From NCBI GenBank assembly GCA_026989095.1, contig JALSKA010000219.1, positions 1-46,521 on the forward strand: a stretch of 46,521 nucleotides of DNA, in the 5' to 3' direction. The position numbers and the translations under genes were made by a program. This document shows, piece after piece, positions 42,256 through 46,521 of the stretch. Positions within the stretch are counted from its first letter, which is position 1. Every line of letters starts with the position of its first letter. The notes under the pieces are model-generated. The model was given only the letters and a program-made list of their open reading frames with translations. It had not been told where the DNA came from and did not search any database. Origin of the DNA: Ardenticatenaceae bacterium. GTDB lineage: Bacteria > Chloroflexota > Anaerolineae > Ardenticatenales > Ardenticatenaceae.

Positions 42256-42284
42256 TTGACCCCCTTGTCAACGTGTGGTAGACT
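42256..42284 (+). promoter_or_regulatory. Promoter of the structured leader/small RNA
   Basis: TTGACC, 17 bases, TAGACT. It begins 13 bases after the end of the upstream gene and would drive the hairpin-rich transcript that ends in the terminator at 42472. Confidence 0.65.
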
Positions 42285-42331
42285 CCACAGGCGTGGCCGG
42301 ACGCCGAGTGGAACGGAAGGAGGAAGCAGGC

Positions 42332-42406
42332 ATGGACCGCAACCGAACACGCCGGCTCGAGCAGACCCTCGCACCAGGGGGAGGTATGCCTGCTTCCAGA
42401 TCATGA
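42332..42406 (+). CDS. 24-residue leader peptide candidate
   Basis: ATG with a strong GGAAGGAGG site 8 bases upstream. It codes MDRNRTRRLEQTLAPGGG and six more residues, then TGA. Four of the first eight residues are Arg. Its start lies in one arm and its last codons in the other arm of the 12-bp helix. Short ORFs in such a place usually act through ribosome position rather than as products. Confidence 0.4.
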   Translation: MDRNRTRRLEQTLAPGGGMPASRS

Positions 42407-42426
42407 TGGTGGCAGTGTGACACCGG

Positions 42427-42472
42427 AAACGCCGTGGGCACTCTCCCTCTGGTGAGGCCCACGGCGTTTTTT
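42427..42472 (+). terminator. Intrinsic terminator / attenuator
   Basis: AAACGCCGTGGGC pairs with GCCCACGGCGTTT across a 17-base loop, followed by a T-run. It ends the leader RNA 155 bases before the ABC ATPase gene. Confidence 0.9.
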
Positions 42473-42512
42473 CTTGGCGTGCCTCGGACCATTCTCCCGA
42501 CGAACCCGGCGG

Positions 42513-42547
42513 AGCCGTGGGCCAGCGTGAGGAGCCCACGGCTTTTT
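42513..42547 (+). terminator. Second intrinsic terminator in tandem
   Basis: AGCCGTGGGC pairs with GCCCACGGCT, then TTTT. Its stem core GCCGTGGGC is the same as in the first terminator, so the two look duplicated. It stands 80 bases before the ABC ATPase start. Confidence 0.88.
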
Positions 42548-42627: not shown

Positions 42628-43491
42628 ATGCTACTGCTCAAGGACCATGACGTGGCCCTGCGGCTCGTGAACGTGAGCAAGGTCTTCAGGCGCGAGAAAC
42701 GCCGTAGCTGGCGCCGCCTCTGGCCCGGCAACGGGCCCTCGCTGGCGAGCGCCGTGAACGCCCTCGACGGGGTCACCTTGGAAGTGCGACGCCATGAAAT
42801 TTTCGGCATTCTGGGGCCAAACGGCTCGGGGAAGTCCACGCTCGTGCGGGTAGTTTCGACGCTCCTGTTGCCCGACGCCGGCCGGGCCGAGGTCTTCGGC
42901 TTCGACGTGGTGCGGGAGGAGAAGGCCGTCAAGCGGCTGATCAACCGCGTTTCGGTGGAGGCGGCCTTCTTCAAGAAACTCTCGGCTGTGGAGAACTTGA
43001 TGTTCGGAGCACGCCTCTACGGGCTGTCGGGCACCGAGGCCCGCGCGAGAATCGTGGCCGTCCTGCGCCGCCTGGGCTTGGAGGAGGAGGCCGCCTACCA
43101 GCCCGTCGAGAACCTCTCGCGCGGGATGCAGCAGAAGGTGGCCATTGCGCGTGCCTTCCTCACCCGCCCGATTCTGCTCCTCCTCGACGAGCCCACGACC
43201 GGCTTGGACCCCCGCTCCCGGCGGGAGGTGCAGGCCTTCGTCCGCGAGCTCCGCAACGAACACGACGCCACCATCGTCCTCACGACGCACGACATGCACG
43301 AGGCCGAGCAGTTGTGCGACCGGGTGGCCGTCATCGACCGGGGCCGCATCGTGGCCCTGGGAACGCCGGAGGCGCTCAAGGCCCGCGTGGCCTCCGAGGG
43401 CCTGCCGGAGCCCACCCTGGAGGACGTGTTCCTGGCCCTCACGGGGCGCCATTTGACGGATTCCCACCACGATCAGGAGGTGATAGCATGA
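42628..43491 (+). CDS. ABC exporter ATP-binding protein
   Basis: A 287-residue ATPase of the drug/antibiotic ABC-2 group (DrrA/NodI-like). Walker A GPNGSGKST is near residue 68, Q-loop region follows, signature LSRGMQQK near residue 160 (an S-R-G variant of LSGGQ), Walker B ILLLLDEPTTGLD near 184 and switch His in LTTHD. I start at ATG 42628 after GGGAGGG. The stop overlaps the permease start (ATGA). The N-terminal 40 residues include a basic insert RREKRRSWRRLW. The substrate is unknown. Confidence 0.94.
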   Translation: MLLLKDHDVALRLVNVSKVFRREKRRSWRRLWPGNGPSLASAVNALDGVTLEVRRHEIFGILGPNGSGKSTLVRVVSTLLLPDAGRAEVFGFDVVREEKAVKRLINRVSVEAAFFKKLSAVENLMFGARLYGLSGTEARARIVAVLRRLGLEEEAAYQPVENLSRGMQQKVAIARAFLTRPILLLLDEPTTGLDPRSRREVQAFVRELRNEHDATIVLTTHDMHEAEQLCDRVAVIDRGRIVALGTPEALKARVASEGLPEPTLEDVFLALTGRHLTDSHHDQEVIA

Positions 43492-44318
43492 GGGCGAACC
43501 AATGGGCCCACGAGGTGCGCGCCAGCTACGCCTTCGTGGAGCGCAATATCAACTTGATCAAACGGTACTGGGGATGGGAGGTGGTCTGGCTCTCTTACAC
43601 CATTGCCAACTCCTTGGCGATCACGTACATTGGTGCCGGCATGGAGCGCATCTCAGGCCAAGCTGTGGACACCCAATTCCTGGTGATGTACTTGCTCATC
43701 GGCACGCTGGTGTGGCACTTCCTCAGCGTGATCTTCGACATCGTTTCCGAGACCATTGCCTGGGAGCGCTGGGAGGGTACCATTGAATACACACTGATGG
43801 CACCCATCTCCCGCTTCACCCACCTGGTGGGGTCCACCTTGTTCTCCCTGGTCTACGGCTTTGCCCACACGGTCATCATCCTGTTGGCCGTGGTCCTCTT
43901 CTTCCGCTTGGACTTGAGCGGGGCCAACCTGGGGGGCGCGGCGTTGGTGCTCTTGGCCGGGAGCATGTCGTTCATCGGGCTGGGCATCGTGGCGGCCGTG
44001 TTACCCCTGCTCTTCCCGGAGCGGGGCGCGCAGATGACGCACGTGGTCCAGGCCCTGCTGCTCCTCGTCTCCGGGGTCTATTACCCTGTGGAGGTGCTGC
44101 CGGCGTGGCTCCAGGTGCTCTCCCGCCTCTCGCCGGCCACATACGTGCTGGAGGGAATGCGCGCGGCCATCCTCGACGGCGCCTCCTTCGCCCATCTGTG
44201 GGGCGAAACTGCCCCCCTGCTCCTGCTGGGAGGCGTGCTCGTCCCGCTGGGGGTCTTCGTCTTCCGCCAGGCGGAGCGCTTTGCCAAGCGCACGGGACGC
44301 CTGAGCCGGGACGGGTAG
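43488..44318 (+). CDS. ABC-2 type permease
   Basis: A 276-residue, six-helix permease, the partner of the ATPase directly upstream (four-base overlap). The ABC-2 signature region is visible around GVYYPVEVLPAWLQVLSRLSPATYVLEGMR (parts near residues 202-232). Such pairs export drugs, lipids or peptides; the substrate is unknown. It ends with a basic tail. It follows the attenuator-like leader, so expression may be conditional on translation stress. Confidence 0.93.
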   Translation: MRANQWAHEVRASYAFVERNINLIKRYWGWEVVWLSYTIANSLAITYIGAGMERISGQAVDTQFLVMYLLIGTLVWHFLSVIFDIVSETIAWERWEGTIEYTLMAPISRFTHLVGSTLFSLVYGFAHTVIILLAVVLFFRLDLSGANLGGAALVLLAGSMSFIGLGIVAAVLPLLFPERGAQMTHVVQALLLLVSGVYYPVEVLPAWLQVLSRLSPATYVLEGMRAAILDGASFAHLWGETAPLLLLGGVLVPLGVFVFRQAERFAKRTGRLSRDG

Positions 44319-44416: not shown

Positions 44417-44938
44417 ATGGGCGCACAGATTCACCAGCCGGCGCCGGACTTCGAGTTGTATGACGTGGAAGGCCGGCGGCACCGACTGCGGGACTACCGA
44501 GGGCGCATCGTGGTGGTGGACTTCTGGTCGGCCGAGTGTCCCATTTCCCGCGATTACGACCCGTATTTCAGCGAGTTCGCCGAGCGGTTTGCGGCCCACG
44601 GCGTGGTGGTGTTGGCCGTGGACTCCAACACCTACGAGGACGAGGGCGTTTTCCACGAGGCCGTGCGCACGAGGAACTTGAGTTTTCCCGTGCTCCGCGA
44701 CAAGGGCAACCAGGTGGCCGACCTCTACGGGGCTGAGACGACGCCCCACGTCTTCGTGGTGGACCGGGAGGGGCTCCTGCGTTACCGGGGCCACGTGGAC
44801 GACCGCTCTTGGCAGCAAAAACACCCCACAACTGATTACTTGGAGCAGGTGGTCCGGGCCCTCTTGGCCGGCGAGGAGCCGCCGGTGACAGAGCGCCCGC
44901 CCTTCGGGTGCACTATCAACAGGGCGTGGGACCTGTGA
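44417..44938 (+). CDS. Redoxin (thioredoxin-fold) protein
   Basis: A 173-residue thioredoxin-fold protein of the AhpC-TSA/redoxin group. The active-site stretch is DFWSAECPISRDY (Cys near residue 40), so there is one Cys where CxxC proteins have two; a second conserved Cys is in PFGCTIN near the C-terminus. The cis-Pro is in TTPHVFVVDREG. It probably reduces peroxides or disulphides in the cytoplasm, as there is no signal peptide. I start at ATG 44417, after AAGGAGG; an ATG 24 bases upstream lacks a proper site. The next gene overlaps by four bases (GTGA). Confidence 0.88.
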   Translation: MGAQIHQPAPDFELYDVEGRRHRLRDYRGRIVVVDFWSAECPISRDYDPYFSEFAERFAAHGVVVLAVDSNTYEDEGVFHEAVRTRNLSFPVLRDKGNQVADLYGAETTPHVFVVDREGLLRYRGHVDDRSWQQKHPTTDYLEQVVRALLAGEEPPVTERPPFGCTINRAWDL

Positions 44939-45593: not shown

Positions 45594-46517
45594 TCATTGG
45601 CCTCCGCTGTCCTCCTCCGCTGGGGTGTGCCGGCACAGCGACCACCGTCCGTATGGCTGAACCCTCACGGTGAGCTCCTCGGCGGTCACCCCGCCCGGCG
45701 CGTAGAGGACTTCTGTGTGGGCGAGGCGCCAGCCCCTGCCCCCGTTGTCCTGACGCTCCCACCCTGTCAACGGCTCCACCGGCCCGGAGATGGAGGGGAG
45801 AGTCTGATTGCCAACAGCGTGCGCGTGGGCTGTGAGCCTCTGTTGGCCGCGCACGGTCAAGTAGACCTCATCGCCGTCACACGTCCACGCATATCCCGAT
45901 GTCGTGGTGCTGTTCTCGGAACGCCGACAGCACGCCAACTGGATCCGACCCCACCCGTAGCCCCGCTCGCCGCCGATTTGCAGGCGCTGGAGGGCCTGCT
46001 CCCACTGCAGGGGAACGCTCGAACCGTTGACGTCGATGGTTGAGGGCATCCCCGTTTGAACCCACAGGTCGCCCACCAGGTAGACGGGCTGGCCCTCGCG
46101 GGTATAGGGTGAGATGAATTCGATTTCGTACAGCATACCTTCGGCCGCGGTGCGTCGGTCGGAAGCCAGCGCGGTGCGCGCGGTGCCGTCCAGGTAGAGG
46201 TAGTCCCAATAGGTGGGGTCGGGCCAGGGGAAGTGGGGTGCGGAGGGAGCTGTCCATGAGCCGTTGTCACCCTTCTCACCACGGGCTGGCCAGAGATAGC
46301 CGAAGCGGAAGTGCGATTGGAGGACTTCTCCCACGCGCTGATAGGCTTTCGCGTTGCTGCCCTGCCCCGCAAGCCAGACCAGGCGCTCGGTGAGCGCGGC
46401 CCAGAGGTTCTTGCCGGGCACGTAGCGGCGGGTTTGCATCAGGTTGCCCGCCTTGCGCCAGCCGATGTGCAGGGGGCTCTCCAGCCGAAAGACCAGGAGG
46501 TAGTGGGTCCAGGCCAT
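45594..46517 (-). CDS. RAMP-superfamily type III CRISPR-associated protein
   Basis: A 307-residue protein. The start FRLESPLHIGWRK, then TRRYVPGKNLWAALTERL, and the glycine-rich loop GGERGYGWGRIQL near residue 188 are typical of RAMP proteins (Cmr/Csm/Csx10 type) that hold crRNA or build the type III effector. Which subunit it is cannot be told. The start ATG 46517 is four bases from the window edge, so its ribosome-binding site and the rest of the operon lie outside. It is the last gene of that operon and converges with the lipoprotein gene across 29 bases; no terminator is obvious there. Confidence 0.8.
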   Translation of the reverse strand: MAWTHYLLVFRLESPLHIGWRKAGNLMQTRRYVPGKNLWAALTERLVWLAGQGSNAKAYQRVGEVLQSHFRFGYLWPARGEKGDNGSWTAPSAPHFPWPDPTYWDYLYLDGTARTALASDRRTAAEGMLYEIEFISPYTREGQPVYLVGDLWVQTGMPSTIDVNGSSVPLQWEQALQRLQIGGERGYGWGRIQLACCRRSENSTTTSGYAWTCDGDEVYLTVRGQQRLTAHAHAVGNQTLPSISGPVEPLTGWERQDNGGRGWRLAHTEVLYAPGGVTAEELTVRVQPYGRWSLCRHTPAEEDSGGQ

Positions 46518-46521
46518 GCTT

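Follow-up and report, generated by a model that had tools for sequence, protein, structure and literature searches.

The region directly upstream of an ABC exporter operon in the window (the whole 46,521-nucleotide stretch analyzed here) is very probably a translation-controlled transcription attenuator of that operon, operated by the stalling of ribosomes by ribosome-targeting drugs. This assignment rests on sequence comparison of its parts, their alternative pairings, the position of the leader stop codon, and an arrest motif that keeps a set spacing to one of the pairing segments. The grounds for preferring it are the mutually exclusive helices, the stop position, the fixed-distance motif, and the presence of this leader before other resistance-type genes at other loci. 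The short RNA would most likely keep an export pump switched off until an antibiotic blocks the bacterium's ribosomes. The preliminary description, which had likened the layout to ribosome-dependent attenuators, is borne out by this evidence; it did not include the second terminator, the antiterminator pairing of 42374-42384 with 42442-42452, or the R-x-R motif.

Architecture of the leader and exporter operon

The leader contains the parts of an attenuator (Table 1): a translatable open reading frame (ORF) behind a promoter and Shine-Dalgarno (SD) sequence, mutually exclusive helices that overlap this ORF and have segment 2 in common (1:2 and 2:3), and intrinsic terminators between the ORF and the exporter genes. 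As first described, the promoter is clear: it is the sole sigma-70-like site within 2 kb (chance expectation 0.1) and is kept in the congeners G001 and G002, and 34/41 family leaders reach a promoter score of at least 10 of 13, compared with 4.6% of shuffled upstream regions. The 24-codon ORF with its strong ribosome-binding site and the 12-bp helix joining ORF start to ORF end, a perfect inverted repeat of GGAAGCAGGCAT (42322-42333) and ATGCCTGCTTCC (42386-42397), likewise hold up, and the intrinsic terminator is present, except that there are two (T1 and T2) rather than one. The two terminator stems are alike (CCGTGGGC/GCCCACGG), which could reflect terminator duplication, shared ancestry, or a preferred terminator stem. 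Folding of the 292-nt RNA is more stable than that of shuffled sequences (z -2.5, 3/200), and P1, T1, and T2 are all present together in the full predicted fold. A repeat or mobile-element origin of the leader was rejected, as its own genome holds only one full copy.

Table 1. Leader elements and exporter genes, in window coordinates
Feature	Position	Strand	Details
Promoter, TG-extended -10	42256..42284	+	-35 TTGACC 42256-42261; -10 TAGACT 42279-42284; spacer 17
Shine-Dalgarno AAGGAGG of leader ORF	42317..42323	+	GGAGGA kept in three congeneric species
Segment 1, 5' arm of 12-bp helix, GGAAGCAGGCAT	42322..42333	+	Overlaps SD end and start codon
Leader ORF, 24 codons, MDRNRTRRLEQTLAPGGGMPASRS	42332..42406	+	ATG 42332; stop 42404-42406
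Segment 2, CCAGGGGGAGG (42374-42384) and ATGCCTGCTTCC (42386-42397)	42374..42397	+	Partner: segment 1 or segment 3
Terminator T1	~42427..42472	+	Segment 3 (5' arm and loop) 42430-42452; segment 4 (3' arm) 42457-42469; U-tract
Antiterminator part of segment 3	42442..42452	+	Pairs with 42374-42384: 11 pairs, 2 of them G-U
Terminator T2	~42513..42547	+	Segment 5 42513-42522; segment 6 42534-42543; U-tract
ABC transporter ATPase, DrrA-like	42628..43491	+	PF00005 5e-29; TIGR01188 265.9 bits, below cut-off 312.45
ABC-2 type membrane subunit	43488..44318	+	PF01061 4.7e-18; start overlaps ATPase stop codon

The ABC-2 exporter operon (42628-44318) lies directly downstream, and its domain assignments agree with the drug-type ABC exporter pair proposed at the outset. 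Identity with the DrrAB daunorubicin exporter is not supported by the NCBIfam models, TIGR01188 falling short (Table 1) as does TIGR01247 (48.3 against 223), and the permease gives only weak ABCG-like matches to solved structures. Beyond the operon, the window encodes an AhpC/TSA-ResA-like protein (44417-44938) with CPIS in place of the usual CxxC and, at its end (45594-46520), a RAMP-superfamily protein (PF03787, weakly Csx10-like) that probably marks the border of a type III CRISPR locus.

Conservation before the orthologous exporter

Promoter, SD, ORF, helix, T1, and T2 occur at the equivalent place in two congeners (G001 and G002). The ORF retains 24 codons in G002; in G001 it has 28 codons counting the stop and an unrelated N-terminus, while the helix shows compensatory changes (GGAAGCAG/CTGCTTCC to GGAGACAG/CTGTCTCC). 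The interval from T2 to the ATPase start is just ∼45 nt in either congener, and the exporter therefore most likely relies on read-through. Recurrence in relatives, which had been put forward as a check, extends to tens of other genera for the ORF and hairpins. The orthologous permease is present in 66/396 Anaerolineae genomes, and in ∼45 Anaerolineae genomes from ∼20 families the exporter is preceded by a promoter, a short ORF, and tandem CCGTGGGC-type terminators. The exporter's neighbor genes, leader aside, are unconserved outside the genus. No recognizable leader was found at the orthologous exporters of genus g130 in family f21 (L116, L118, L120-L125) and some others; the g130 operons form a natural contrast group.

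Some loci contain an extra gene, for example a GNAT acetyltransferase, between leader and exporter. GNAT-like reading frames, called by eye from the DNA in seven loci, lie just 5' of the exporter in G275 (L077), G015 (L050), G293 (L084), G337 (L079), G112 (L111), G131 (L115), and G027 (L056); those of G275, G293, and G027 sit between leader and exporter.

A leader family in front of unrelated genes

A covariance model spanning segment 2 (the ORF end) to T1 matches 219/396 Anaerolineae genomes at E ≤ 0.01, where the weakest matches may be bare terminators and the best ∼150 among the matches listed cover the whole model. At 1e-4, 55/400 genomes of the phylum (Chloroflexota) are matched, some outside Anaerolineae. 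The cultured Ornatilinea apprima P3M-1 is among the leader-bearing genomes (leader at L271:687-773), and its peptide is without R-x-R. Genes behind the leader include ABC-F proteins above the NCBIfam ribosomal-protection cut-off (L156, L176, L184), MFS pumps resembling TetA(P) that fall short of the strict exception cut-offs (L159, L162), half-ABC exporters, and many GNAT acetyltransferases. HAD-type hydrolases follow the leader in three genomes (L167, L175, L189) and possibly have an unrecognized drug-modifying or detoxifying function. L140 (G062) has a leader whose R-x-R keeps the usual spacing, and the second reading frame after it resembles the RtcB RNA ligase; drug-type attenuation of a repair gene would deserve attention.

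Searches of Rfam 15 with the window and 16 homologous loci, by gathering threshold and by E-value, returned zero matches, and a literature search found no publication on attenuators in Anaerolineae. On these searches, the leader family is apparently undescribed. Drug-inducible attenuators are known mainly in Firmicutes, Actinobacteria, and enterics, usually one gene at a time. In Anaerolineae, a single leader family is present in more than half of the genomes sampled, where it precedes ABC-F, TetA-like, GNAT, and ABC-exporter genes. It would make intrinsic antibiotic responses readable in the mostly uncultured Anaerolineae, with any gene behind the leader becoming a candidate resistance gene.

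Alternative pairings match within genomes

Segment 2, near the ORF end, typically reads GNAGUGCGCC and is complementary both to segment 1, in the start region, and to segment 3, which comprises the T1 5' arm plus loop. As a pairing control, partners were swapped between genomes, and own-genome energies were compared with those of pairings to other families; since many leaders come from related genomes, the permutation counts overstate independence, and family counts are given alongside. For 1:2 the mean is -25.6 kcal/mol with the own partner and -19.6 with other families (20/21 families; 0/2000 permutations), and for 2:3 it is -23.8 versus -20.1 kcal/mol (19/21 families; 0/2000 permutations). 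The promoter-region control gives no signal (592/2000 permutations). Segment 2 of the window pairs with its own T1 at -31.0 kcal/mol, better than with the T1 of every other family. With curated terminator arms, the T1 3' arm and T2 5' arm (4:5) also match best within their own genome (-19.4 versus -16.3 kcal/mol; 18/20 families; 0/5000 permutations), so that a relay disarming both terminators is possible.

These pairings bear on whether the region might instead be a stand-alone small RNA gene of ∼180-260 nt and only a chance neighbor of the exporter. Its own promoter, the two strong terminators, and the simultaneous presence of P1, T1, and T2 in the full fold are compatible with such a gene, but conserved alternative pairings would be senseless in a fixed RNA, and leaders precede resistance-type genes from unrelated families. 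The ∼45-nt gap in G001 and G002, which leaves scant space for a second promoter, and the location of 43/43 model matches with E < 1e-4 in the 80 named loci on the exporter strand make an independent small RNA very improbable.

The stop position is conserved and an arrest motif is spaced from segment 2

The leader stop codon follows the segment 2 core by 10-28 nt, except in family f40, where it falls just within segment 2. Although leaders differ in the frame in which they read the core, all three frames being used, the stop position is kept; before non-orthologous genes, 54/54 leaders have an ORF ending in the usual range at segment 2. This range across three frames implies that the site of ribosome exit is conserved and the peptide mostly is not: start, stop position, and length class of the ORF are maintained, and most of the peptide sequence varies. 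A conserved peptide as the main constraint was discarded, given that the RSAP-like C-terminus tracks the RNA segment and a UAG stop replaces RSAP in f40.

One element recurs at the peptide level. The window peptide contains R3-N-R5-T-R7 (42338..42352, + strand), that is, two overlapping R-x-R motifs (RNR and RTR, codons 3-7) with 40 and 34 nt between their A-site codons and the downstream segment 2 core. R-x-R (+X+) is the ribosome arrest motif of macrolides and ketolides (PMC8298421). R/K-x-R/K occurs within codons 2-16 of 24/42 peptides, compared with 9.4 ± 2.4 in shuffles, with RR, RxxR, RxxxR, and RxxxxR at background level in the same 42 peptides. In 21/24 motif-bearing leaders (null 2.5, maximum 8 in 3000 trials), 34-43 nt (median 40) separate the motif's A-site codon from the segment 2 core further downstream, and this distance is constant whether the ORF starts 49 or 88 nt from the core. 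The 34-43 nt window was picked after viewing this first set and held in an independent second one, where 17/22 motif leaders fall within it (null 1.95 ± 1.34; 0/5000). The motifs are encoded by 32 distinct 9-mers among 40, which indicates selection on the peptide; the middle residue is mostly Ile or Leu. In the ABC-2 set, the A-site falls at codons 4-7 of short leaders or 10-18 of long leaders, and in the latter a ribosome queued behind a stalled one would occupy the start codon.

About 40% of ABC-2 leaders have no R-x-R upstream of segment 2, and another stall trigger, or none, is therefore required there. An R-x-R within 34-43 nt occurs in 21/41 ABC-2 leaders versus 3/19 GNAT leaders (Fisher p = 0.011), a hint that leader peptides are fitted to different drugs.

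The leaders without a motif, the mostly unconserved peptides, and the conserved RNA segment GNAGUGCGCC could also fit a ligand-binding riboswitch or a protein-bound attenuator, to which the ORF would be incidental. Such an RNA gives no reason for 54/54 non-orthologous leaders to place the ORF end at segment 2 in three frames, or for segment 1 to contain the SD and start codon; moreover, the fixed-distance R-x-R enrichment operates on the peptide, Rfam matches are absent, and nothing resembling the conserved unpaired core of an aptamer was seen. This explanation carries a low probability. A classical amino-acid-starvation attenuator stalling at hungry codons would share the 1:2/2:3/3:4 logic of trp or his, but the peptides contain no single-amino-acid run, the arginines are spaced as R-x-R rather than RR or RxxR, and the downstream genes are of export and resistance types instead of biosynthetic; it is the least probable of the alternatives.

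Proposed mechanism of drug sensing

For the drug-responsive attenuator, we infer a drug as signal, masking by ribosomes, read-through as output, and a 4:5 relay. The off state would have 1:2, 3:4, and 5:6 paired, and the on state 2:3 and 4:5. Without drug, an untranslated leader would form helix 1:2, and a leader translated to its stop would have segment 2 covered by the ribosome; in both cases 3:4 would make T1, 5:6 would make T2, and RNA polymerase would halt. An early stall in the leader ORF, probably at R-x-R in many leaders including that of the window, would mask segment 1 or hold it off segment 2. The freed segment 2 would then pair with the T1 loop and 5' arm (2:3), the released T1 3' arm could pair with the T2 5' arm (4:5), and with neither terminator formed the exporter would be transcribed.

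A ribosome covers ∼15 nt on each side of its P site, so that in the window leader most of segment 1 would be hidden once codon 5 occupies the A site. The motif of long leaders is far downstream of segment 1, which a single stalled ribosome would therefore leave uncovered; there the model has to invoke queuing of ribosomes or steric hindrance. Exact quantitative predictions, testable in reporter strains, follow from the relay across two terminators and from the ∼40-nt spacing that separates motif from antiterminator.

It is an evenly balanced question whether all these leaders represent one modular drug sensor, in use across Anaerolineae and in portions of other Chloroflexota classes. The six-segment RNA scaffold with the above off and on states, its relay canceling both terminators, would then be a shared frame into which exchangeable arrest peptides are fitted ∼40 nt ahead of segment 2; placed before unrelated resistance genes, the leaders would form a distributed regulon for ribosome-targeting antibiotics.

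Comparison with known attenuators

Ribosome-mediated transcription attenuation of resistance genes is already known (ermK, mef/mel, bmrCD, tlrB). The closest parallels in logic, ermK and mef(E)/mel, are macrolide-inducible transcription attenuators with R-x-R leader peptides (MTASMRLR for Mef(E)L, MTHSMRLRFPTLNQ for ErmK) upstream of macrolide resistance or efflux genes; as proposed for the window leader, they combine a short R-x-R leader ORF, alternative inverted repeats, intrinsic terminators, and read-through upon ribosome stalling (PMC4335068). The R/K-x-R/K of the window peptide is that of RLR-class leaders. Unlike these Firmicutes systems, the Chloroflexota leaders (17-35 codons in Anaerolineae) share neither leader sequence nor segment layout, carry R-x-R at a set distance from segment 2 instead of near the peptide end, and have two terminators with interchangeable arms before an ABC-2 exporter. 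As the peptide is not of the MTxSMRLR type and the regulated gene is ABC-2 rather than erm or mef, descent from that family is not supported; judged by its sequence, the leader would work like ermK/mef(E) without being a member by descent.

Two Bacillus subtilis systems share other aspects. At bmrB-bmrCD, a multidrug ABC transporter is attenuated, as proposed here, through alternative stem-loops, leader translation is needed, and translation inhibitors induce; in contrast to the exporter here, bmrCD is a half-ABC pair and is additionally under AbrB control (PMC4191407). At tlrB (yxjB), transcription of a gene for resistance to ribosome-targeting drugs is freed from attenuation by a stall at R-x-R (RYR), as proposed for the window leader, whereas its leader has 9 codons with a C-terminal motif and adds translational control and RNA polymerase pausing, and no antiterminator was identified there (PMC6851288). 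Finally, the trp and his attenuators share the 1:2, 2:3, 3:4 logic and the translating ribosome as sensor. The Anaerolineae leader differs from them in having no run of regulatory codons and a second terminator coupled through 4:5, and its signal is most likely a drug rather than charged tRNA.
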